Assembly (NCBI GenBank): GCA_016841245.1
Contig: JAENZN010000017.1
Span: forward strand, 1 to 64,000
Length of the DNA: 64,000 bases
Source of the DNA: Syntrophomonas sp.
GTDB lineage: Bacteria > Bacillota > Syntrophomonadia > Syntrophomonadales > Syntrophomonadaceae
Direction: 5' to 3'
The translations under genes and the position numbers were made by a program. Position 1 is the first letter of the stretch. Every line of letters starts with the position of its first letter. A model generated the notes under the pieces. That model ran no database searches, was not told where the DNA came from, and saw nothing but the letters and a program-made list of their open reading frames with translations. This document shows positions 42,275 through 61,804 of the stretch, piece after piece.

Positions 42275-42310
42275 TAACTTTTGATCTTCTTGAGAAAAGG
42301 AGGTATTTCC

Positions 42311-44098
42311 TTGGCACAAATGCAGCCGATTAATACTATCAATGTTGGAGAAGCGATGACCTGCGATTTTGGACGTGTTAGCAGGGATACTGCAGTAGAG
42401 ACGGTAATCAGTATGATGCTGCAGAATCACTGGGGAGAAGTTGTCATTGAAGATGATCGAGATGGTTTCCAGCTGGTAACCAAAGAGCATCTTATGAGGT
42501 GTGTGGAAAACGGTTTTCCGCCCCATCTTCCCATATCTGAAATGGGCAGAAAAAATACTATTACTACTACTGTTGAGGAACCTTTGGTGGAGGCCCGGGA
42601 GCTTATGAGGCAACTCAAGATTGGACGGCTGCCAGTAAAGGATATTACGGGGAGCATTGTTGGCATGTTAACTGCCAGAGATGTATGTAATGGATTTTGT
42701 GATAAATTAGAAATGCTCGGCGAACATATGTATGCCATATTGGACAACATTAGCGAAGCTATTCAAGTAATTGACTGCCAGGGAAGAGTGGTCTTCTGGA
42801 ATCGAAGTGCAGAAGATTTATTTGGGATTAAAACCGAGAATATTCTCGGCTATAAAATGGAGGAATTTTATCCTGACGATATTACCCTGAAAGTAATAGC
42901 TACCGGCGAATCATATCCTAATATTTTGTGCGAATTAAGGGAAGGCTTATATGTGGCTCGTAATGCTGTGCCGGTGATTATGCAGGATGGAAATATTGTT
43001 GGAGCAGTTTCTACTACTACCAATGTAAGCCAGTCTAAAAATTTAATTGAAGAATTAAACCGCGTTAACAGCCGAGTAAAACAGCTGGAGGAAAGAATCG
43101 TAAATAAAGAAGAAATTAGTAAAGAGCCCTTCTACACTATTGATATAGAAACTAAAAGAGTATTATTGCAGGCCAAGAGGGTGGGAGGAACTGATGCCAC
43201 GGTGCTGATCCAGGGAGAGAGCGGTACCGGCAAAGAACTGATGGCCAATGTAATTTATCAAAATAGCAAACGGGCTAAACAAGCATTTATTGCAGTTAAC
43301 TGCAGTGCCATTCCCAGTACCTTATTTGAAAGTGAGATGTTCGGTTATGAAGCGGGCAGCTTTACCGGCGGCAACAAATCTGGAAAGCAGGGGAAATTTG
43401 AGCTTGCAAATGGGGGAACCATATTTTTAGATGAGATAGGCGAACTCCCTCTGGATATGCAGGCCAAGCTGTTAAGGGTAATTCAAGAACGCAAGTTTTA
43501 CCGGGTGGGTGGTACCGCAACGGTGGAAGTAAATGTAAGGTTAATTGCAGCTACTAATAAGGATCTGGCCCGACTGGTTGCAGAAGGGAAATTCCGGGAG
43601 GATCTTTTTTATCGATTAAATGTAGTAACATTGGACATACCCCCGTTAAGAAAAAGGCAGGAAGATATAATCGGTTTGACCAAGAGATTTATCAGTGAAA
43701 TGGAATGTGTGTATATGCGGTCCATATCCGGGATTGATCAGCAGGTCTTGGACTTATTTCGGGTTTATGAGTGGCCGGGGAATGTACGGCAGCTGCATAA
43801 CCTGTTGGAAAGCGTGATTATTCTTATGGAGGATGACTTTATCAGCCTTAATTCTCTGGCCGAGGCTGGAGTATTAGAGAACTTAGGCGGTAATAACGAT
43901 CTTCTTAATACAGATCAAATTTTGGAAGATGATCTGGAAGTGCCAAATTTGGATGAATTATTGGTTAAGAGAGAGCGAGAGGTAATTATACGGGCTATGG
44001 AAGAATGCAAACACAATAAAGCGCGTGCGGCCAAGAAACTAGGGATTCCTCGCAGTACGTTGTATTATAAACTGAAGGCCCTGGGGATATCAGATTAA
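42311..44098 (+). CDS. sigma-54-dependent transcriptional activator with CBS pair and PAS domain
   Basis: A 595-aa enhancer-binding protein. Two CBS domains (about 5-125), a PAS domain (about 138-240, [18 protein letters not shown]), the AAA+ sigma-54 domain (about 270-505: Walker [15 protein letters not shown] in place of GAFTGA, Walker [12 protein letters not shown]-finger region) and a Fis-type helix-turn-helix ([20 protein letters not shown]). No receiver domain, so it likely senses ligands: CBS pairs often bind adenine nucleotides, PAS small molecules or redox state. TTG 42311 follows AAAGGAGGT. The next operon starts with a -24/-12 promoter, its probable target. Confidence 0.95.
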
Positions 44099-44288: not shown

Positions 44289-44328
44289 AGTGTCAGTTTT
44301 TTAGAATTAATTCTAGAAAGCTGACACT
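44289..44328. promoter_or_regulatory. 40-bp dyad, probable enhancer of the sigma-54 activator
   Basis: AGTGTCAG and CTGACACT are separated by 24 bp that continue the symmetry (18-bp arms around TTAA). It ends 63 bp before the -24 element. The same dyad with the same spacing recurs at 57923-57962 near the second sigma-54 promoter. Confidence 0.75.
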
Positions 44329-44388
44329 TTTATATTTCGCAAACCGGGATATACTGCTCTTTACTGGGCAACTTATATTTAACAGGGG

Positions 44389-44404
44389 TTGGCATATTAA
44401 TTGC
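44389..44404 (+). promoter_or_regulatory. sigma-54 (-24/-12) promoter of the Hdr cluster
   Basis: TTGGCAT-N4-ATTGC with GG (44391-44392) and GC (44403-44404) exactly 10 bp apart, 80 bp before the first Hdr gene. It lies just behind a gene for a sigma-54 activator. Confidence 0.88.
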
Positions 44405-44483
44405 AATTATAATAACCACAACAAAGTGATTTCGAATTCGGTTTGTTCTGGGAAAAAACACTGGCAAAGGAGATGTAGATAAT

Positions 44484-45113
44484 TTGCCCAGAGAAAATAT
44501 GACTCAGTGGGATGATAAATTATATCAAAAGGTAGACCGATATAATCTGGTGCCTAACCTGGATGAATGCCTGCAGTGCGGAAAATGTACCGGCAACTGT
44601 CCGGTAGCAGCGTTGCATCCATCTTATAATCCCCGGCAGATAGTACACGATATATTACTGGGAGAACTTGATAGAGTACTGCAGAGTGAAGAAATCTGGA
44701 GATGTTTATGGTGTGCGAATTGTTACCGGGTATGTCCGGTTGATATTCATTACCCGCTGCTTATGATGCAGCTGCGCTATCTGGCACTTGAGAATGGTTA
44801 TGGACTTAAATACGTTACGCCCATAAATAAATATGCTTATCGGTCCCTGGAATGTGGATTGACTTTTGTTCCAGGGAAAAAAGGGGTAGAAAAAATAAAA
44901 GGCTTGCGTGAAGGAATAGGGGTTGAACCCTGGCCAAAGGTATCAAAAAAAGCTATTCATGAATATGGTGAAATATTTAAACAAACCGGAGCTTATGATT
45001 GGATGAAAGCCCTGGATGAAGTGCAGGCTAAAGGCGAAGAAAAACCAGTAACACTTACATTTTTGGGGGGGAGATTAGTAGATGAGCGCTATGACACAGA
45101 AGAGGGTAATTAA
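44484..45113 (+). CDS. HdrC-like ferredoxin-type protein (first pair)
   Basis: A 209-aa iron-sulfur protein with two [4Fe-4S] motifs: C29-x2-C32-x2-C35-x3-C39 and C74-x2-C77-x2-C80-x3-C84, each ending in CP. The rest is helical, with a C-terminal extension beyond a typical HdrC. It is expected to pass electrons between HdrA and HdrB-type subunits. TTG 44484 follows AAAGGAGATG. The end overlaps the next gene by 32 bases. First gene after the sigma-54 promoter. Confidence 0.9.
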   Translation: MPRENMTQWDDKLYQKVDRYNLVPNLDECLQCGKCTGNCPVAALHPSYNPRQIVHDILLGELDRVLQSEEIWRCLWCANCYRVCPVDIHYPLLMMQLRYLALENGYGLKYVTPINKYAYRSLECGLTFVPGKKGVEKIKGLREGIGVEPWPKVSKKAIHEYGEIFKQTGAYDWMKALDEVQAKGEEKPVTLTFLGGRLVDERYDTEEGN

Positions 45114-46071
45114 ACCCCAGGAACGTATTCCGCAAATCCCCGAAAAAATATTTCTCTTCCGCAGTTGTACAGGTAGTATGGAATACCCGGGGACTGAGCA
45201 TTGCGTCGAGTTTGTGCTTAAGAAATTGGGAATAGAAGTGGTGAAAGATCCTGACCAGAGCTGCTGTTCGGGCTATATTCTTACCTGTTCCGGATATCCT
45301 GCCGAGCCCTCGCTGGCAGTCACCGCCCGCAACCTGGCTATGGTGGAGCAAAAATATGGTCTGGATACCTATGTTTTCTGTAATGGGTGTTTTGGCTACA
45401 ATAAAGAATTAAAGCACATTCTGGATCATCATCCGGAGTATAAGAATATGGCTAACGATTTGATTGGACAATGGGGATATCATTACGAAGGAACCAGTAC
45501 TGTTTACCATGTGCAGGAATTATATTCTCTGCTGCTGGATCGGATTAAAGAAAATGTAGTTCGGCCTTTAACTGGGTTAAGAGTAGCGTCCCACTATGGC
45601 TGCCATTACCTGGCTCAACAGTATGGCATTCTGGACGAAGGGGATATGCCTACCTTCCATGAAGAAATTTACGAAGCCCTGGGAGCAACCCCGGTTTTTT
45701 ATAAAGAGAGAAGGATGTGCTGTGCTTATGCAGTGGGACGGGGATTTACTCACCCGGAAAATGTGGTTCAGCCTCATCTGGCCAGGAAGTTCGATAGTGC
45801 CAAAGCAGAAGGCGTAGAAATAATGACCACTACCTGCCCGGGATGCAATGTAGCCCTGGACCGGGAACAGCCTAAACTTAAAAAAAGAGGTTTTGGCCCG
45901 TATGATATTCCGGTTGTCGATTTGGGACAGCTTATAGCTCTGGCGCTAGGAGCTCCAATAGAAGAAATTGGGTTTAATGCAAATTCAACCCCGGTTGAGC
46001 CGGTTCTAAAAAAACTGGGGTTTTTTAAAGATGATTATGGGGTTTGGGAAAGGAGATTTGTAAATGAATAA
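45082..46071 (+). CDS. HdrB-like CCG-domain protein (first pair)
   Basis: A 329-aa protein with two CCG domains that hold non-cubane iron-sulfur clusters in heterodisulfide reductase. Cys sets: C29, C61-C62, C100-x2-C103, and a second with C213-C214 and C252-x2-C255. In both, the residue after CC is Ser or Ala, not the usual Gly, unlike the second HdrB of this operon. Substrate is therefore uncertain; a disulfide or a related electron carrier is possible. ATG after GGGGGGAGA. Confidence 0.88.
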   Translation: MSAMTQKRVIKPQERIPQIPEKIFLFRSCTGSMEYPGTEHCVEFVLKKLGIEVVKDPDQSCCSGYILTCSGYPAEPSLAVTARNLAMVEQKYGLDTYVFCNGCFGYNKELKHILDHHPEYKNMANDLIGQWGYHYEGTSTVYHVQELYSLLLDRIKENVVRPLTGLRVASHYGCHYLAQQYGILDEGDMPTFHEEIYEALGATPVFYKERRMCCAYAVGRGFTHPENVVQPHLARKFDSAKAEGVEIMTTTCPGCNVALDREQPKLKKRGFGPYDIPVVDLGQLIALALGAPIEEIGFNANSTPVEPVLKKLGFFKDDYGVWERRFVNE

Positions 46072-47083
46072 TAGCGAAAAGACAGCACTCATAATCGGCG
46101 GGGGACTAGCTGGTCTGGAAGCAGCCAATAAAATTGGCGGAGCGGGTTATAAGGCCATTCTGGTTGAAAAGGAAGAACAGCTGGGTGGTATTATGAAACA
46201 GCTGTACGGTAGTTTCCCGCGCTGGGATAACCCCCGGGAATTGGTTGATCAAAAAGTTAAAATGGCGCAAGAAAATCCGAATGTTACCATGAAAACAAAC
46301 ACCACAGTAAAATCAGCTCACAAGAAAGACCAAACATTTGTGGTAGAACTGAGCAACAATGAACAGATGGAATTTGATGCAGTAGTTCTGGCTACTGGAT
46401 TTGATTTTTATGATGCCTCACAATATGGGGAATATGGGTATGGTGCATTCGATAATGTCTTAACTGCACTGGAATTTGAAGCAAAATTAAAGGAAATGGA
46501 ATCCTGGGATAAAGAGGATCTTCCTCAGGTAGTAGCGTTTTTTAAATGCGTAGGTTCCCGTGATCGGTCCAAAGGCTATCCGTATTGTTCTAAAATATGC
46601 TGCATGTTTACTGCCAAAGAGGCGGGATTGATGAAAGATCTCAATCCGGATGCCAAATGTTTTGTGTTTTATATGGATTATCGGGCGGCAGGTAAGGAAT
46701 ATGAGGAATTTGCACGTTCAGTGATGGAAGATAAACATGTCCGTTATGTAAGAGGCCGTCCAGCCAAGGTGTTGCCGGAAAATGGAAAACTTATGGTGAG
46801 AGCGGAGGATACCTTGATGGGTGTACCGGTAGAAGTAGCAGCCGATATGATCGTCTTGGCCAATGCTATGATACCGGCAGAAAGCACCATAGAGCTGGCG
46901 GGAATTTTTGGGGCCAAAATCGACCAGTACGGTTTCATTGATTATATCCCTGGGCATCCAACCCAAACGGGTGATAGAGTGTTTTTTGCCGGAGGCTGTG
47001 GATTCCCGGTAGAAAGTTTGGGTGCACAGTATCAGGGGGCAGCAGCGGCAGCGGATGTTATAGCCCTGTTCACTCAGGATTAG
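46064..47083 (+). CDS. hdrA: short HdrA/QmoA-like FAD protein
   Basis: A 339-aa flavoprotein with the FAD Rossmann motif GGGLAGLEAA (12-21), DAVVLATGF, and the HdrA hallmark C162-VGSRDRSKGYPYC175-SKICC (C179-C180). It is about half the length of archaeal HdrA: N-terminal cluster and C-terminal ferredoxin domains are missing, as in QmoA of sulfate reducers. It presumably connects the two HdrCB pairs. Overlaps the preceding gene by 8 bases. No partner such as MvhD, Flox or formate dehydrogenase is nearby. Confidence 0.88.
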   Translation: MNNSEKTALIIGGGLAGLEAANKIGGAGYKAILVEKEEQLGGIMKQLYGSFPRWDNPRELVDQKVKMAQENPNVTMKTNTTVKSAHKKDQTFVVELSNNEQMEFDAVVLATGFDFYDASQYGEYGYGAFDNVLTALEFEAKLKEMESWDKEDLPQVVAFFKCVGSRDRSKGYPYCSKICCMFTAKEAGLMKDLNPDAKCFVFYMDYRAAGKEYEEFARSVMEDKHVRYVRGRPAKVLPENGKLMVRAEDTLMGVPVEVAADMIVLANAMIPAESTIELAGIFGAKIDQYGFIDYIPGHPTQTGDRVFFAGGCGFPVESLGAQYQGAAAAADVIALFTQD

Positions 47084-47094
47084 GGGGCGAGTTA

Positions 47095-47676
47095 ATGCTT
47101 AATACTGCAGACTTCTACCATGTTTTAAGAATAGATCAAACCAGTAACTCACTCCGGGAGGAAATTAAAGAACACTGCCACACGGATATTGAAATGTGTT
47201 TGGAGTGCGGCAAATGTTCTGGTGGATGTTCCAATGCTCATATATTTGATATTACTCCCAGGAAGATAATTCAATTAATAAAAGTCGGAGAAGAAGCAAA
47301 ACTATTAAAAATGGATGCATTATGGTCATGTGTAGCCTGCCAGTTATGTGTTGACCGGTGTCCGTCATCTATTAACATTCCCAGGATTATGGATTATTTA
47401 CGAGAGAAAGCCTATAGTCAAGGCGTTCCTGCCAGCAGGCCCAATGTAGAACTTTTCCATGAACTTATGTTGAATAATATCAAGAGATTCGGTAGAGTGC
47501 CAGAAGCTTTGTTAAGTGTAGAGTTCAACATCAGGTCCAAACAGTATACCAAAGATGCTGAGATGGGGATGAAGATGTTTTTTAAAGGCAAACTAAATCC
47601 AATCCCTGCCCGAATCAAAAATATCAAGCAGGTACAGCGTATGTTTCGGGATATACCAGCGCAGAGGGAGGGATAA
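47095..47676 (+). CDS. hdrC: HdrC-like protein (second pair)
   Basis: A 193-aa protein with C35-x2-C38-x2-C41-x3-C45 and C79-x2-C82-x2-C85-x3-C89, the two [4Fe-4S] sites of HdrC. The segment FDITPRKIIQLIKVGEE is typical. It follows hdrA by 11 bases and shares one base with the next gene. Confidence 0.92.
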   Translation: MLNTADFYHVLRIDQTSNSLREEIKEHCHTDIEMCLECGKCSGGCSNAHIFDITPRKIIQLIKVGEEAKLLKMDALWSCVACQLCVDRCPSSINIPRIMDYLREKAYSQGVPASRPNVELFHELMLNNIKRFGRVPEALLSVEFNIRSKQYTKDAEMGMKMFFKGKLNPIPARIKNIKQVQRMFRDIPAQREG

Positions 47677-48551
47677 TGATGAATGTAGCATATTATCCCG
47701 GGTGTTCACTGCATGGACTAGCTAAAGAATACGGCATCTCGGTTGAAGTAGCATGCAAACACCTGGGTATAAATTTAAAGGAAATTGAAGACTGGAACTG
47801 CTGTGGGGCCACTGCTGCCCATAGTCTGAATCATGAACTGACCATAAGCCTTAGTGCGCGCAACCTGGCTATTGCCAGGGATATGAAGATGAATAAAGTG
47901 CTGGCACCCTGTGCGGGATGCTTCAGCCGACTAAAAGGTGCTTCTTATGAACTTAGAAATAATAAGGCTTTGGCCGCTGAAGTAGGCGAGATTATTCAGG
48001 CTGAACCACCAGTAGAACCGGAGGTTAATAATTTACTGCAGTTTATTATGGAAGAACAGGGAATAGATGCTTTAAGGGCCAAGGTCGTAAAGCCCTTGCA
48101 GGGCTTAAAACTAGCGGCTTATTATGGCTGTTTACTGACCAGGCCCAAAGAAGTAGTGCAGTTTGATGATCCTGAACAGCCGGTATCCATGGATCTAATT
48201 CTTCAAGCTCTGGGGGCGGAGCCTGTAGTATGGGCTCATAAGGCAGAGTGTTGTGGTGGTGGATACGCGGCCAGCGATACCGATATAGTTATAGATTTGA
48301 GCGGGCAGATTCTGGAATCCGCCCAGATAGCAGGAGCGGATGCGATTGTGGTGGCCTGCCCCATGTGTGGTGTAAACCTGGATACCAGACAAGAGGCTAT
48401 TGCAGCCAAGAAAGGTAAAAAATATGATTTGCCGATAATATATCTTACCCAGTTAATGGGGATAGCCTTTGGGTATTCACCTGCGCAGTTGGGGCTTAAG
48501 CGACATCTCAATAGTCCCTTCCCCTTGCTGCAGAGTAAAGGGCTGTTATAG
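47676..48551 (+). CDS. hdrB: HdrB-like protein with canonical CCG motifs (second pair)
   Basis: A 291-aa catalytic subunit with C10, C42-C43-G and C79-x2-C82 in the first CCG domain, and C152, C192-C193-G and C228-x2-C231 in the second. The canonical motifs suggest a true heterodisulfide-reductase-type double cluster. Clostridia lack coenzyme M/B, so the natural disulfide or acceptor is unknown. Last gene of the five-gene operon. Confidence 0.92.
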   Translation: MMNVAYYPGCSLHGLAKEYGISVEVACKHLGINLKEIEDWNCCGATAAHSLNHELTISLSARNLAIARDMKMNKVLAPCAGCFSRLKGASYELRNNKALAAEVGEIIQAEPPVEPEVNNLLQFIMEEQGIDALRAKVVKPLQGLKLAAYYGCLLTRPKEVVQFDDPEQPVSMDLILQALGAEPVVWAHKAECCGGGYAASDTDIVIDLSGQILESAQIAGADAIVVACPMCGVNLDTRQEAIAAKKGKKYDLPIIYLTQLMGIAFGYSPAQLGLKRHLNSPFPLLQSKGLL

Positions 48552-48815: not shown

Positions 48816-49799
48816 TTGAACAAAAGCAAGCTTATCACCATGAAAGAAGCTGTTGAAAAATACACCTACGACGGCATGTACTTTGGGCATGGCGGATCAC
48901 TGCCGGTAGGGTCTGATTGTGTATCATTCTTTAGAGAAATGGTCAAAGCCGGAATAAAGGATATTGACTGTGCATCAGGCTGTAATACCCAGGGAACCAA
49001 CCTGTTGGCCGCAGTAGGCGGAATTAAACGGATAGAACTTGGATTTTCAGGATTAGAAGTATATGGTTTTGCTAATGGATTAAAAAGGGCAGTTGAAACC
49101 GGGAAAACCATTCTCGAAGACTATTCGAACGGTGCTATGCCCATCCGGATGATGGCGGGAGCATTGAACTGGCCGTTTGTACCTACATTTATGAATACCG
49201 GTTGCGATCAGCAGTGGGCATCAGCAGATGATCCCGAAAACTACCCCAACACTAAAAAAATACCCGAAATCACCGACCCATTCACCGGGAAAACATGTGG
49301 AGCATTCACTCCGATAAAACCTGATGTAGCAGCAATCCATGTAACTATGGCGGATATTTACGGTAATGCTATCATGCTGGGTACCGAATGGAACCGCTTT
49401 GAATTATCCCGCTGCTCCAAGAAGGTAATTCTTGTTGCTGACAAAATAGTGGACACCGGTGTTATGAGGCAGTATCCCAACCTGGTTAGAATTCCTTATA
49501 TAGTGACTGATGCGGTCGTATACGCTCCATATGGGGTATGGCCTGCATGCTCCACTGGTCTTTATGACAGCGATGAAGAACACATGTTCTACATGAACAA
49601 GATGCTCAAGACTGAGGAAGGCACCAATGAATATCTCGAAAAATTCGGCCAATATGGTGATGTCTGGGATTATGTAAACATGATCGGCCAGGAAAGAATC
49701 GACAAGATAACTAATACTGATACTGCGTTCTTGATGGATCCGTACAGACAATGGATTAAGACTGATGCGGAAATCAAGGAACTCTTGGAAAGGAGGTAA
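48816..49799 (+). CDS. CoA-transferase subunit A (glutaconate CoA-transferase family)
   Basis: A 327-aa alpha subunit of a two-subunit family I CoA-transferase. KLITMKEAVEKYTYDGMYFGHGG and the ALNWPFVPTFM segment fit the GctA-like group, whose members use glutaconate, 3-oxoacids or aromatic acids. TTG 48816 follows AAAAAGGAGGG. Works with the next gene, which starts 4 bases later. Confidence 0.88.
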   Translation: MNKSKLITMKEAVEKYTYDGMYFGHGGSLPVGSDCVSFFREMVKAGIKDIDCASGCNTQGTNLLAAVGGIKRIELGFSGLEVYGFANGLKRAVETGKTILEDYSNGAMPIRMMAGALNWPFVPTFMNTGCDQQWASADDPENYPNTKKIPEITDPFTGKTCGAFTPIKPDVAAIHVTMADIYGNAIMLGTEWNRFELSRCSKKVILVADKIVDTGVMRQYPNLVRIPYIVTDAVVYAPYGVWPACSTGLYDSDEEHMFYMNKMLKTEEGTNEYLEKFGQYGDVWDYVNMIGQERIDKITNTDTAFLMDPYRQWIKTDAEIKELLERR

Positions 49800-49803
49800 G
49801 ACC

Positions 49804-50601
49804 ATGGATTATACAAGACAAGAAATGATGGCAATTGCAACCGGTAGGGAATTTAAAGACGGTGAACTGGCAATATTCGGGGTTGGCCTCAGTATGCTGG
49901 CAGGATTCTTTGCCCAGAAAAATCATGCTCCGAATCTGATGGCATTTACTGAAGGCGGAGTTTATGGATCCACTCCAGTAGGCGGACTGCCCTGGGGGAT
50001 AGAGGATAACCGGATATCTGCTAATGCGGTCAGCTTTACCAATGGTATTGACGCGCTGGGATTCCTGGTGGCCTCGGGAAGAGTTGACAATGCGGTTATC
50101 GGTGCTGCTGAAGTTGATAAATACGGTAATGTTAACACCACCGGCATATGGGCGGAAGGCACCGATCCATGGAAGGTCGGTAAATATACACTTCCCAGAG
50201 TAAGGTTGAACGGTTCCGGCGGTGCTAATGAGATTGCTACCGGTGCCAAGAAATACCTGCTTATGGTTACTCATGAGAGAAAGAGATTTAATGAAAAAGT
50301 ATCTTATATTTCCTCACCAGGATACCTGGATGGTGGGAATGCTCGTGACAAATATGGATTTCCAGGAGGAGGACCTTCTGCAATGATTACCACTCTGGGA
50401 ATTCTCAGACCGGACCCGGTTACTAAAGAGTTTATTCTCACCGGTTATTATCCTTTCTCATCTATAGAGGAAGTTAAAGAAAATACTGGCTGGGATCTCA
50501 AAGTAGCCCCGGATGCGCAAGTCATTCCTGAGCCTACGGAAAAGGAACTGGAGAACCTCAGAGCAGTAGACGTAACTGGTTCACTTAGAAAAAAGAAATA
50601 G
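49804..50601 (+). CDS. CoA-transferase subunit B
   Basis: A 265-aa beta subunit. ATG 49804 follows AAAGGAGGT. GVGLSMLAGFFAQK, then FTEGGVYGSTP with the candidate catalytic Glu (about residue 48), and GSGGANEIATGAKKY. The pair would activate a carboxylic acid with CoA from another acyl-CoA. The position next to a CstA-type transporter suggests uptake and activation of the same acid. Confidence 0.88.
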   Translation: MDYTRQEMMAIATGREFKDGELAIFGVGLSMLAGFFAQKNHAPNLMAFTEGGVYGSTPVGGLPWGIEDNRISANAVSFTNGIDALGFLVASGRVDNAVIGAAEVDKYGNVNTTGIWAEGTDPWKVGKYTLPRVRLNGSGGANEIATGAKKYLLMVTHERKRFNEKVSYISSPGYLDGGNARDKYGFPGGGPSAMITTLGILRPDPVTKEFILTGYYPFSSIEEVKENTGWDLKVAPDAQVIPEPTEKELENLRAVDVTGSLRKKK

Positions 50602-50902: not shown

Positions 50903-52555
50903 TTGACTACTACATCACTAACACTCATAGGGCTAGCAATATGGATACTGGGATTTTTTACCATTGCCGGTTATCTGCAAAAAGTATATTTTAAATACAA
51001 ACCAGGCCGGCCAGTTCCGGCAATTGAACTACGGGATGACGTGGATTTTTACCCAGCCAATCCGATAACCCTGTTTGGTGACCACTGGGCATCAATAGCC
51101 GGCGGATCACCTTTGGCTGGTGGTGCAACTGGTGTAATGTGGGGTTGGTTACCCGCTTTCTTGTATATTACCGTGGGTAACATATTCTTAGGTTCACCCC
51201 ATGACTATGCTACTATGCATTTATCTATGCGGAAGCAAGGGATGACCATCGGGGGTCTTATAACGGAGCTAATCAGTACCAGGTCCGGAAAGATGGGCGT
51301 AGTTCTAGGTTGGTTGACTATTTCGGCGTTTGTGGCAGTTTTCCTAAGCTCGTTAGCTAATCTTTTCGAAGCCACACCGGAATTGACTCTTCCAACAATT
51401 GCCTTCACGGTCAGCGGGGTTATCATGGGCTTTCTGATTTATAAAGCTGGCTGGCCGGTTATGAGGGCTACTATCCTTGGAATAATTATCGTGGCTGCGG
51501 CTGTATATTATGGCCTGCAATACCCGATACACTTATCGCATAACGTATGGTTTGCCATTTTTGTAATTTATCCGATAATATCGGCCTCCATACCGGCTTG
51601 GATGTTAGTCGAACCCAGAAACTTCCTGAATTTCGTCTTCATGTGCGTGGGTGCGTTGGTACTATTGGTAGGTTGTGTTGCTGGCAATCTTCCCATTCTA
51701 TTGCCCAGTGTTATCGCTAACACCCCAAAGGGGCCTCTATGGCCGATGTTGTTCCTGACTATATCATGCGGTGCTTTGACCGGGATGCATTCATTCTGGA
51801 CTACGGGATATACCTCCAGAAGAATACCTGATGAAAAATTTGTACGCCTCATAGGCTATGGCGGAGAAGTATTGGAAGGACTGACGGCATTCGTAGCTTT
51901 AGCTTCTGCTGCAGTCTTGCCTTTGGCTGTCTATACGGAAGTTATCGGCAATGGGTGGATATTTATCCTCCAGAGCGGGTATGCACAAATTGCCGGAAAT
52001 GTATTCACGTTTATTTCCCATGACGCTTGGTTAGTCTGGGGCGGATTGCTCGGTAGCATATTCATGATAACAACCCTGGAATCCGGTGGTAGAAATATGA
52101 GAGTATTCTTGATGGAACTTTACACCATGGCGACTAAAAAACCGATTGGCCCTGCAGCGCAGACCCCTGCCAAGTGGGGAGCAGCAACAATTTCCCTGGC
52201 GTGGTGCGGAGCATTGGCACTGTCCGGTGCTTGGTTCTATATATGGGTACTTTTCCCTGCCCTTTCTAGTCTTCTGGCAGTAATGTCCTTTATGACGATT
52301 ATCATTTGGCTGAAGCTAGTTAGCAGACCTACCGGGTACTTTTGGTTTGCATTAATCTTTACCACAGTTGTCATAGCAATACCGGGAGCGTGTTACCTTA
52401 GCTGGACCTATATAGTTCAAGGAATGTATCATTTGGCTTGGATACCTTTGCTTGCCATTGTTCTGACCGCATTCTTCTATCTGGACTTCTTTAAGAAGAA
52501 AAATGCCATTACGGATAAAGACATCGCTTTGGCTACCGCTGAGGAAGACGCGTAA
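50903..52555 (+). CDS. CstA-family (carbon starvation) membrane transporter
   Basis: A 550-aa protein with about 14-16 membrane helices. The segment FGDHWASIAGGSPLAGG and TISCGALTGMHSFW match CstA/BtsT, which import pyruvate or peptides. It is shorter than the 690-700 aa of E. coli CstA. TTG 50903 after GAGGAGGAA. Placed after the CoA-transferase genes, it may import the acid they activate. Confidence 0.88.
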   Translation: MTTTSLTLIGLAIWILGFFTIAGYLQKVYFKYKPGRPVPAIELRDDVDFYPANPITLFGDHWASIAGGSPLAGGATGVMWGWLPAFLYITVGNIFLGSPHDYATMHLSMRKQGMTIGGLITELISTRSGKMGVVLGWLTISAFVAVFLSSLANLFEATPELTLPTIAFTVSGVIMGFLIYKAGWPVMRATILGIIIVAAAVYYGLQYPIHLSHNVWFAIFVIYPIISASIPAWMLVEPRNFLNFVFMCVGALVLLVGCVAGNLPILLPSVIANTPKGPLWPMLFLTISCGALTGMHSFWTTGYTSRRIPDEKFVRLIGYGGEVLEGLTAFVALASAAVLPLAVYTEVIGNGWIFILQSGYAQIAGNVFTFISHDAWLVWGGLLGSIFMITTLESGGRNMRVFLMELYTMATKKPIGPAAQTPAKWGAATISLAWCGALALSGAWFYIWVLFPALSSLLAVMSFMTIIIWLKLVSRPTGYFWFALIFTTVVIAIPGACYLSWTYIVQGMYHLAWIPLLAIVLTAFFYLDFFKKKNAITDKDIALATAEEDA

Positions 52556-57922: not shown

Positions 57923-57962
57923 AGTGTCAGCTTCTTAGATAGATGTTCAAGAAACTGACACT
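57923..57962. promoter_or_regulatory. second 40-bp AGTGTCAG-N24-CTGACACT dyad
   Basis: Same arms and the same 24-bp distance as the dyad at 44289-44328. It lies about 220 bp before the second sigma-54 promoter. A half site CTGACAC at 58112-58118 is also present, 64 bp before the -24 GG, exactly where the right arm lies in the first copy. Confidence 0.7.
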
Positions 57963-58179: not shown

Positions 58180-58195
58180 TTGGCATGTTAATTGC
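58180..58195 (+). promoter_or_regulatory. sigma-54 promoter of the decayed Hdr copy
   Basis: TTGGCAT-N4-ATTGC, identical to the promoter at 44389-44404 except for one base in the spacer, with the GG-N10-GC distance kept. It now drives only remnants. Confidence 0.82.
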
Positions 58196-58229
58196 AACAA
58201 AGTTCACTAGATGCAACAAACGATAAAGA

Positions 58230-58620: not shown

Positions 58621-59183
58621 CGTTATTTTATCAAATGTGTGAGTGCGCGCGATCGAAGCAAAGGTATGCCGTATTGTTCAAAAGCCTCTTGTATGTATAC
58701 AGCAAAGCAAGCAAAGGAACTAAAAAAAGCTCATCAGACGCAGACGTATGTGTCACGTATGTGGATATTAGGACAAACTTCAAAGATGCTGAAGAGTTTG
58801 TCCGCGGCGTCATGGAAAATGAGCGTGTACGTTATATCCGTGGACGCGTTGGCAAGGTATTTCCTGTTAATGATCGGTTAATCGTCAGAGCAGAAGATGT
58901 TCTGATGGGTACCCTTTAAAAATCGAAGCAGACTTATTTGTTCTAGGACTGCCATGGTTCCAGTAAAAGTACTAACACTTTGGTCAACAAGGTTGGAGGG
59001 AAGGCCGATGACAATGGGTTTATAACATCGGTTCCTCTCGCCCAAAGCGCTAACACCATGGAAAAAGGTGTATATTATGCTGGCGCTTGCGGTTTCCCTT
59101 GCGATGTTGGTGAATCGCTCAATCAAGGCAGTGCAGCCGCTGCAGGAGTATTATCTTATCTTCAAGTCAACGGGAGGCCGTGA
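58621..59183 (+). pseudogene. decayed hdrA copy
   Basis: C-terminal half of a short HdrA in several frames: FIKCVSARDRSKGMPYCSK, then ADDVLMG-type segments (EEFVRGVMENERVRYIRGR, VRAEDVLMG), then GGKADDNGF and YYAGACGFP. They align in order with residues about 160-335 of the intact HdrA at 46064-47083. The N-terminal FAD part is missing and at least three frameshifts are present. Confidence 0.85.
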
Positions 59184-59386
59184 ATGAGTAATTATTCATT
59201 AGAAAGGGAGGGTCTCGAAAAAGGGCAAAACTGTTATGACTTCATTTCAAACTGAAATCGAACAAAAGGCGGATTTGAACCTCGATGCGTACATGCAATG
59301 TGGCTGTTGTGCTGGTGGATACAGTGGATCGATTACATGGATTACAGTCCTCGTCAAATGATTCAGTTGATGAAGAATGAATAAGC
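59184..59386 (+). pseudogene. decayed hdrC copy
   Basis: Fragments of the HdrC ferredoxin region: NLDAYMQCGCCAGGYSGS, then in another frame YSPRQMIQLMKNE, matching the first cluster motif and the TPRKIIQLIK segment of the intact gene at 47095. The second cluster motif is gone. Confidence 0.75.
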
Positions 59387-59389
59387 GGG

Positions 59390-59877
59390 ATATTTTACCC
59401 AAAAGCTAAACGTAGAAGTAGTCCATTTAATCGATGTATTATCTGAACTATCTGTTTTTGAGACCCGGAAGGAAAGAATTCAAACAAAATTCAGAGACCT
59501 TAAGGTTGTTTGCTACTATGGATGTTTGACGGGTAGACAAATTCGAACCTGAAGCAAACGATTCGGAAAATTCACAAAGTATGGCTAATCTTTTAAAGCT
59601 CTTAGAGATTGATTCAAGGGATTGGTCTCATAAAACAGGGTGTTGTGGCGGAAGTCACTTGCTTTACGGGCCTGAACTTGCCACGATCAGAACGGATGAG
59701 GTCATAAGCCAGGCAAAGGTTGCCAGAGCATATCGTTGTGGTGTGCCCCTTGTGTTACTCAAATTTGGGATTCCGTTTACATGCCCAAGTACAAACATTC
59801 CGGTAGTATTTTTTACCCAGTAGCTTGGTCTAGCCTTAGGATACTCTGAAAAAGAGGTTGAACTTCACAAAAGGTAA
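59390..59877 (+). pseudogene. decayed hdrB copy
   Basis: Pieces of HdrB in order: FRDLKVVCYYGCLTGRQ, then WSHKTGCCGGSHLLYGPELA, then IPVVFFTQ and, after an in-frame TAG at 59821, LGLALGYSEKEVELHKR. The N-terminal CCG domain is lost, the first pieces are out of frame, and the last CxxC motif is missing. Ends at 59877. Confidence 0.85.
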
Positions 59878-59921: not shown

Positions 59922-61115
59922 ATGAATCGAACAGATTTAAGAAACAAGTATTCCATTGTAGGTGTAGGTTACACACCGCAGGGAAAAGTTCTGGGACGCT
60001 CTGCAAATAGTTTTTATCTCGAAGCGACCATGAACGCCATTAATGATGCGGGACTAAAAAAGGATGATATAGATGGTCTGATTTTATACCGCGATTTTCC
60101 GATTTTGCCCGGTGACGCCATGCATCATACAGGCAATGTCATAACCTACAGTCTTGGCATACGCCCTAAATTCTTAAGCCAGGAAGCTTACTGCTACCGG
60201 ACCAATATCAATAAAGCAATAGGTGCTATCGAAAACGGAACATGTAAGTATGTTCTTATCGTATTTGCCGAGAGCGGCAGAACCGGTCACCGTACATGGA
60301 CAGATGAGATTGACCTGTTCAGCAGCAAGCCCTATGATGAGTACGCCGCTTATGGAAACATTTCAGCTTTCACCAACTATGCCATGTTCGCTAGTCGTGC
60401 CATGCATGAACACGGAACAGGACCTGATATATGGTCGGAGATAGCTGTCGCACAGCGTAAATGGGCTAATCTGAATCCCAATGCTATTCAGTACAGCAAG
60501 CCTTTGACAAAGGAAGACTACATGGCAACACCGTTTCTTTCATGGCCGTTCCGTGCCCTGGATGCAACTGCATCAACCGATGGCGGCCGCGCAATTATCA
60601 TCACCACCACAGAGCGGGCCAGAGAACTCAAGAATCCGCCTATCATGATCCGCGGATACGGCTCTGCCAATGATACTGCCAAGGGCTGGCAGCTTACTCC
60701 GGGCGATCCCGCGAGCAGCGCCCGTATTGCCGGAGCCCAAGCTTTTGAGATGGCCGGACTGTGTACAAAAGATATAGGCGCAGCCCAGATATATGACTGC
60801 TACACCTATACGGTTGAGGCAACCCTGGGTGATTACGGATTCTTCGAGAAGACAAAACAACGTGACTTCTTAACAGTTGAGAACTTAGGACCCGGCGGAG
60901 ATTTCCCGATAAACACCGGTGGCGGGCTGCTTTCTGAAGGTTATGGTATGGGATTGACTCCCATAGGCGAAGCTGTGATGCAGATGTCCGGGCGTTGTGG
61001 AGATCGTCAGTTAGGTGTGGTACCTGGCACAAAAATGCCTGAATTCATGATCGTCTCCGATAACGGCGGTTTCTATCAAAGCAACGAAACTCTTATTTTA
61101 GAAAGGGGTAAATAA
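59922..61115 (+). CDS. thiolase-superfamily protein (SCP2/BbsB-like)
   Basis: A 397-aa thiolase-fold protein. ATG 59922 follows AGCAAGGAGG. The N-terminal half has the nucleophile candidate C91 (EAYCYRTN). In the C-terminal half the usual GHP motif is replaced: GGLLSEGYGMGLTP has Tyr-Gly where the catalytic His normally stands. It overlaps functionally with the DUF35 gene 3 bp downstream, as in benzylsuccinate-pathway thiolase BbsB/BbsA and archaeal acetoacetyl-CoA thiolase complexes. Likely cleaves or forms a C-C bond of an acyl-CoA, but the altered His makes this uncertain. Confidence 0.85.
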   Translation: MNRTDLRNKYSIVGVGYTPQGKVLGRSANSFYLEATMNAINDAGLKKDDIDGLILYRDFPILPGDAMHHTGNVITYSLGIRPKFLSQEAYCYRTNINKAIGAIENGTCKYVLIVFAESGRTGHRTWTDEIDLFSSKPYDEYAAYGNISAFTNYAMFASRAMHEHGTGPDIWSEIAVAQRKWANLNPNAIQYSKPLTKEDYMATPFLSWPFRALDATASTDGGRAIIITTTERARELKNPPIMIRGYGSANDTAKGWQLTPGDPASSARIAGAQAFEMAGLCTKDIGAAQIYDCYTYTVEATLGDYGFFEKTKQRDFLTVENLGPGGDFPINTGGGLLSEGYGMGLTPIGEAVMQMSGRCGDRQLGVVPGTKMPEFMIVSDNGGFYQSNETLILERGK

Positions 61116-61117
61116 GA

Positions 61118-61546
61118 ATGACTCAAGTATTAAAAGTAAATCTGCCTTACGACCTCAGAGTCAGCTCTGATAATGCTATGTTTTATCAAACTGCTCATGA
61201 TGAACATAAATTTATTCTGCCACACTGCAAAAGCTGCGGACAGTATTTCTGGCCTGGTGCTTTTATCTGCCAGCACTGCGGCAGCACGGATGTTGAGTGG
61301 AAAGAGGCTTCGGGCCATGGCAAAATTTATTCCCACGTGGAAGGGCGATTCCCGTTCCATCCGGACATCAAGGAATATCTTCCAATTGCCATATGCTCTG
61401 TGGTCCTGGACGAGGGACCGCGCGTTTTCGGGCGCCTTGTTAACTATGAAGAAATCGAAAAGGTTCCTTATGATGCACCTGTGCATATCGTATGGCTTCA
61501 AGACGATGAAAAAGGATGCACAATCATGGGATGGGAAATGGATTAA
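61118..61546 (+). CDS. DUF35 / OB-fold zinc-ribbon acyl-CoA partner protein (BbsA-like)
   Basis: A 142-aa protein with a rubredoxin-like zinc ribbon (C37-x2-C40 and C51-x2-C54) and a C-terminal OB fold (GKIYSHVEGRFPF, CSVVLDEGPRVFGRLV). In known complexes such proteins bind the CoA part for the partner thiolase. Starts 2 bases after the thiolase stop; the two are surely one operon. Confidence 0.9.
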   Translation: MTQVLKVNLPYDLRVSSDNAMFYQTAHDEHKFILPHCKSCGQYFWPGAFICQHCGSTDVEWKEASGHGKIYSHVEGRFPFHPDIKEYLPIAICSVVLDEGPRVFGRLVNYEEIEKVPYDAPVHIVWLQDDEKGCTIMGWEMD

Positions 61547-61653: not shown

Positions 61654-61804
61654 ATGAGTAAAGCATTGTATCCGGGTAGGTTTTGATCCGGTAACAAACA
61701 GGCAGGTAGAGACTGAAGTGCCAGTAATGGAACTTCCCACTGCAGAAGAATTGGCAGTACTTAAGAAAGTTGACCCCAATTACATCCTGGGATATGAGTT
61801 TTAA
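61654..61804 (+). pseudogene. short frameshifted gene behind the riboswitch-like element
   Basis: ATG 61654 with AAAGGTGG before it opens a frame of ten codons (MSKALYPGRF). Shifting by one base gives VGFDPVTNRQVETEVPVMEL and LPTAEELAVLKKVDPNYIL, ending at TAA 61804, which reads like a real protein tail. Together about 49 residues; family not recognised. Confidence 0.5.

Follow-up and report, generated by a model that had tools for sequence, protein, structure and literature searches.

What does a heterodisulfide reductase (Hdr)-type complex with two different HdrCB arms and a single HdrA do in a bacterium of the genus Syntrophomonas? This question is raised by a 64,000-nucleotide stretch of DNA (positions 1 to 64,000 of contig JAENZN010000017.1, assembly GCA_016841245.1; hereafter the window), which contains the operon hdrC1-hdrB1-hdrA-hdrC2-hdrB2 at positions 44484-48551 on the plus strand. 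The operon probably encodes an electron-handling complex with a job other than sulfur oxidation, because it is apparently co-regulated with genes for the breakdown of organic acids and is not accompanied by sulfur-oxidation accessory genes. The reading that we favour, with a confidence little better than even, is that this two-armed complex, which has the architecture of the sulfur-oxidizing sHdr system, is the redox module of a carboxylic-acid pathway that proceeds via coenzyme A (CoA) thioesters under the control of sigma-54 and of an activator here called REG.

Open reading frame coordinates and Pfam/NCBIfam matches bear out what had been read from the sequence alone, namely five genes that form two HdrCB pairs around one HdrA. 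HdrC1 (44484..45113; 209 amino acids) carries two 4Fe-4S motifs, and HdrB1 (45082..46071; 329 amino acids) consists of two CCG-type domains; they are followed by a short form of HdrA (46064..47083; 339 amino acids), by HdrC2 (47095..47676; 193 amino acids) and by HdrB2 (47676..48551; 291 amino acids), whose motifs are CCG/CCG and thus canonical, as had been stated. The description of the five genes as overlapping is correct for C1/B1 (32 nucleotides), B1/A (8 nucleotides) and C2/B2 (1 nucleotide) but not for A and C2, which are separated by a gap of 11 nucleotides. The HdrA protein indeed lacks the extra ferredoxin domains: in comparison with the methanogen HdrA (PDB accession code 5odc; 654 amino acids), both the ferredoxin insert and the tail are missing, and the window protein aligns with long HdrA in two pieces that flank the absent insert. 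The only solved structure that it matches over its full length is sHdrA (6tjr). The five-gene cluster contains the only intact HdrA copy of the whole genome, and a fused HdrCB of the Flox-Hdr kind, which many other members of the family carry, was not found in this genome.

The sequence-only reading had attached weight to the presence of CCS and CCA in place of CCG in the two cluster motifs of HdrB1. The residues were read correctly, but their meaning was over-read. S63 of the first motif (CCS) is invariant across the 17 HdrB1 sequences of the class, A215 of the second (CCA) is found only in this genus (4 of the 17 alignment rows, the other 13 having G), and motif 1 of methanogen HdrB reads CCP. 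Since the residue that follows the cysteine pair is not a ligand, these residues do not make HdrB1 distinctive, and CCS/CCA was rejected as the hallmark of a special HdrB. All ten cysteines that ligate the non-cubane clusters are present in the window HdrB1 and in all 24 rows of its clade, whereas three of the ten are lost in 14/14 sHdrB1 sequences (a 7/10 pattern). An AlphaFold model of HdrB1 (predicted local distance difference test score, pLDDT, of 85) is matched along its length by Foldseek to the methanogen HdrB 7bkb_B (E 3.8e-23; TM-score 0.81); together with the ten cysteines, this indicates that HdrB1 is folded like HdrB and has sites for two non-cubane clusters.

Phylogenetic trees tentatively place the first arm of the window complex beside that of sHdr. 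C1 and sHdrC1 group together against C2, sHdrC2 and the other HdrC proteins (support 99/94), and B1 groups with sHdrB1 (support 100/97), while the approximately unbiased test rejects a tree that joins B1 to methanogen HdrB (p-AU 0.018). In the HdrA tree, the window-type proteins form a clade of their own that is separate from both sHdrA and long HdrA. The same sets of genomes cluster in the trees of C1/B1 and of C2/B2.

HdrB1 was surveyed in 63 genomes of the class and in a sample of 398 genomes of the phylum. It is present in 20 of the 63 class genomes; all five genes stand in order in 16 of these, and the loci of the other four are interrupted by contig ends. The phylum sample added three genomes, from two other families, with the same five genes, so that the conservation of the asymmetric order beyond this strain, as predicted, is evident. 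Neither of the two outcomes that had been named beforehand as speaking against a conserved asymmetric complex was seen: the order is not unique to the strain, and HdrB1 lies apart from the ordinary HdrB of methanogens. Flox-Hdr has been described from the Syntrophomonadaceae (PMC5017805, PMC6687939), and literature searches limited to openly readable papers found no description of the operon studied here.

In three further genomes of the phylum sample, the five-gene order is interrupted by an additional HdrC-like gene that follows A and precedes C2. The loci L094, L095 and L096 (C1-B1-A, an HdrC-like gene of 127-140 codons, C2-B2) represent a branch of this family that diverged earlier; they have CCG in both HdrB1 motifs and no CoA-transferase, and a Rex-like gene adjoins the cluster of L095. 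Genome G200 of the phylum sample possesses only a C1-B1 fusion plus A (L090, 9123-11685): a frame of 506 amino acids lies beside HdrA, C2 and B2 are absent, and genes for an acyl-CoA dehydrogenase, a 3-hydroxybutyryl-CoA dehydrogenase and a thiolase are found nearby. A linkage to an acyl-CoA dehydrogenase gene at another locus (L059) was discarded as a single, non-operonic case with a 540-nucleotide gap.

REG (42281..44098, plus strand), encoded upstream of hdrC1 and adjacent to it in most relatives, is a PrdR-like sigma-54 activator with a CBS-PAS-AAA-Fis helix-turn-helix architecture (Pfam/NCBIfam). Between the two genes lie the inverted repeat GTGTCAG-N24-CTGACAC (44290..44327), which we infer to be the binding site of REG and hence propose as an upstream activating sequence, and a -24/-12 promoter with the sequence TGGCATATTAATTGCA (44390..44405, plus strand). 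A promoter of this type was re-found with at most one mismatch in 13/13 REG-linked loci, against 0-2.5% of shuffles per locus, in agreement with the sigma-54 promoter claimed earlier. With a -24/-12 element, a conserved site upstream of it and a gene for an enhancer-binding protein all in place, sigma-54 control is predicted. The repeat, of which the window's genome has just two copies, occurs in 12 of the 63 class genomes (1-3 copies each), all 12 of which carry HdrB1 (Fisher 5e-8); it is present in no class genome that lacks HdrB1, and the reversed pattern, used as a control, has zero matches in the 63 genomes. That the repeat is a mere terminator of REG is disfavoured, as the copy at 57924 has neither a plus-strand gene upstream nor a run of T after it.

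In the window, the repeat at 44290 precedes not only the hdr operon but also the genes of a glutaconate-CoA-transferase-like enzyme, whose alpha (48816..49799, plus strand) and beta (49765..50601, plus strand) subunits have glutaconate CoA-transferase (1poi, subunit A, and 1poi_B) as their nearest solved relative. The Glu of the TEGG motif of the beta subunit aligns with the E of ESG in 1poi_B, which we take to be the catalytic Glu. A gene for a CstA-type transporter follows (50903..52555, plus strand; Pfam/NCBIfam), in the place of which most other genera have an MFS transporter. The second copy of the repeat (57924..57961; pattern match), which the sequence-only reading had not mentioned, is followed, on the plus strand, by a second -24/-12 promoter, TGGCATGTTAATTGCA (58181..58196), by a decayed hdrA copy with frameshifts and stops (58624..59156; sequence comparison), by remnants of hdrC2 (recognized by eye) and hdrB2 (tblastn) at 59242..59871, by an intact gene for an SCP2-type thiolase (59922..61115) and by that for its DUF35-like partner (61118..61546; Zn-ribbon/OB-fold, judged by eye). 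The CoA-transferases and the thiolase noted earlier in the neighbourhood were confirmed.

The same repeat also precedes operons in relatives. In genomes G001 and G003, repeat and box precede an AibAB-like pair with a split alpha subunit and then a CoA-disulfide reductase-rhodanese, and in G026 the repeat leads into thiolase, DUF35 and CoA-disulfide reductase genes. CoA-transferase beta is encoded in 16/20 genomes with HdrB1 versus 1/43 of the others, that one at a contig edge (Fisher 2e-10, a value that overstates independence, as the genomes are related and loss or transfer may affect the cluster as a whole). This co-occurrence, together with the shared repeat and promoter, makes the proposed link to CoA-thioester catabolism a strong one. 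No acyl-CoA dehydrogenase gene was seen in the repeat-linked operons, and the Hdr complex would therefore be the main redox enzyme there.

The two enzyme pairs in these operons differ: the pair downstream of the window's hdr operon is closest to 1poi, and the regulon pair of the relatives is closest to AibAB (5mzw/5n03), although its alpha subunit, unlike that of AibAB, is apparently encoded by two genes (about 102 and 152 amino acids; L183, 5192-8770, in G001, and L184 in G003). Its beta subunit has SDG at the position of the CoA-transferase catalytic Glu. A 31-codon remnant of an AibB-like gene, 77% identical to that of L183, is present in the window as well (61709..61801, plus strand). In L184, the repeat-linked locus of G003, hdrA is likewise broken. 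The SFANCG motif and the rhodanese cysteine motif are visible in the CoA-disulfide reductase-rhodanese of the relatives.

In the pathway that we envisage, the CstA or the MFS transporter would take up the acid, and the CoA-transferase would convert it to its CoA thioester. In the relatives, the AibAB-like enzyme would then decarboxylate it; the thiolase and its DUF35 partner would carry out the cleavage. Both arms, C1B1 and C2B2, would be attached to one HdrA in a single complex with two non-cubane 4Fe-4S clusters per B subunit, and electrons from the pathway would travel via the flavin adenine dinucleotide (FAD) of HdrA, with C1B1 as the substrate-side arm at one end and C2B2 as a generic arm at the other. 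Because HdrA is devoid of ferredoxin domains, we would expect electrons to flow linearly to a thiol/disulfide carrier, or away from one, and not to be bifurcated as in the HdrABC-Mvh type.

Several points weigh against assigning the complex to such a pathway. HdrB1 occurs without a CoA-transferase in four class genomes (some of these assemblies are cut at contig ends) and in L094-L096; therefore the complex is not tied to the acid pathway alone. The co-occurrence could also stem in part from the block loss or transfer of one cluster. Both the binding of REG to the repeat and the assembly of the five proteins are predicted from sequence. Furthermore, sHdrB1 and sHdrC1 are located on very long branches, and a union of sHdrB1 with sHdrB2 is not rejected (p-AU 0.125); for this reason, we regard shared ancestry of the two-armed design in the operon and in sHdr as likely rather than proven.

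Among the alternatives, a reductase for CoA disulfide or another disulfide substrate, working alongside the CoA-disulfide reductase/rhodanese of the regulon, is a possibility that we hold to be unlikely. The clusters of methanogen HdrB act on disulfides, and the CoA-disulfide reductase genes of G001, G003 and G026 stand behind the same repeat. Syntrophomonas, moreover, would need a thiol-disulfide carrier that is as yet unnamed (PMC6687939). However, no such reductase turned up in the examined stretches of the window's genome, the rest of which was not searched for it, and CoA-disulfide reductases also serve as general redox-defence enzymes. A further, doubtful reading posits a lipoate-independent, two-armed, sHdr-like branch in strict anaerobes whose first arm, having kept both non-cubane clusters, would have a CoA thiol/disulfide or CoA-thioester couple as its redox partner. 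If true, this branch would provide syntrophs that have neither coenzyme M/B nor DsrC with the thiol-disulfide carrier they are thought to require, and it would suggest that the sulfur-oxidizing sHdr derives from such a complex.

It is distinctly improbable that the two HdrCB pairs were merely brought together, with one of them decaying and no single complex being formed. The decayed hdrA-C2-B2 copy in the same regulon and the reduced gene set of G200 fit this idea, but both arms, in unchanged order, are found in 16 complete loci that span two families and in three genomes that represent two other families, and the congruent groups of the C1/B1 and C2/B2 trees likewise argue for arms that stay together.

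A true sulfur-oxidizing sHdr system in an anaerobe has very little to recommend it. Clusters for sHdr are ordered DsrE-C1-B1-A-Hyp-C2-B2-LbpA (PMC6067878, PMC11582611), an order that we also found in the named clusters examined (DsrE, Hyp and LbpA being assigned there by position and size). The arrangement in the window hence has a precedent, which the sequence-only reading had missed. A plasmid collection gave two weak matches to sHdr and no usable reference. The shared order, the similar sizes of A, C2 and B2, the full-length match to sHdrA, an HdrA of about 350 amino acids (339 in the window) and the CoA-disulfide reductase with rhodanese in the relatives' regulon all speak for an sHdr. However, the published description of type I sHdr has the syntenic core C1-B1-A-Hyp-C2-B2 (PMC11582611), and an associated LbpA gene is required (PMC6067878, PMC10332631). 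The window locus departs from it: the 11 nucleotides between HdrA and HdrC2 hold no Hyp gene, so that the core is incomplete; the only two GCV_H genes of the genome are on contigs C18 and C37, with the hdr operon on C7; and the DsrE/TusA matches in the genome lie on C3 and C18. The partners are CoA-transferase and thiolase instead. Since Hyp, a linked LbpA, DsrE/TusA and the cysteine losses of sHdrB1 are all absent, the window complex is most likely not an sHdr. The GcvH-like gene on C18 (L043; G000 C18:158000-177900) has an unusual setting, with GlcD- and GlcF-like genes, a radical SAM gene and the E2 gene of a 2-oxoacid dehydrogenase as neighbours. Scarcely credible, finally, is an electron donor system for glycine/betaine reductase: REG resembles PrdR, and in G044 hdrC1-B1-A-C2 comes after a grd cluster with thioredoxin reductase (TrxB; L060, 984-11558), but this single, non-operonic case has a gap of 329 nucleotides and no sigma-54 box or repeat, and grd genes are absent from the other annotated neighbourhoods.

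Should the redox module of an acid pathway be the correct reading, the two-armed Hdr design would be wider than sulfur oxidation and would serve the carbon catabolism of anaerobes at the thermodynamic limit. The defined regulon, with its repeat, promoter and operons, would then offer a handle for finding the substrate and the partners of the complex, and the cysteine-complete B1 arm would bear on the origin of the unusual cluster sites of sHdrB1.

How, then, does the complex compare with known systems? With QmoABC it shares a short HdrA-like flavoprotein, but it has no second HdrA-like QmoB and no membrane-bound QmoC (NF038018 scores 37 bits against a cut-off of 300), and its HdrB subunits are separate; the label QmoA-like, initially given to its HdrA, was dropped in view of the match to sHdrA. 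The HdrB fold, the cluster cysteines and the FAD/4Fe-4S core of HdrA are common to it and to HdrABC of methanogens (5odc, 8rvu, 9sfi) and bacterial Flox-Hdr, from which it differs by the short HdrA, the two CB arms and an HdrB1 outside the methanogen HdrB group; no MvhD, hydrogenase, Flox or formate dehydrogenase genes were seen alongside the hdr operon. Type I sHdr (e.g., that of Hyphomicrobium denitrificans) resembles it in the C1-B1-A-C2-B2 order, the short HdrA and the two different CB arms; set against this are an HdrB1 of 329 amino acids with ten cysteines versus about 455 with seven in sHdrB1, the predicted sigma-54 control, the CoA-transferase and thiolase partners and the strictly anaerobic lineage. 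Hence, the two-armed gene order is known from sHdr, and what is new is a distinct, cysteine-complete and LbpA-free relative that is probably set in carbon catabolism.

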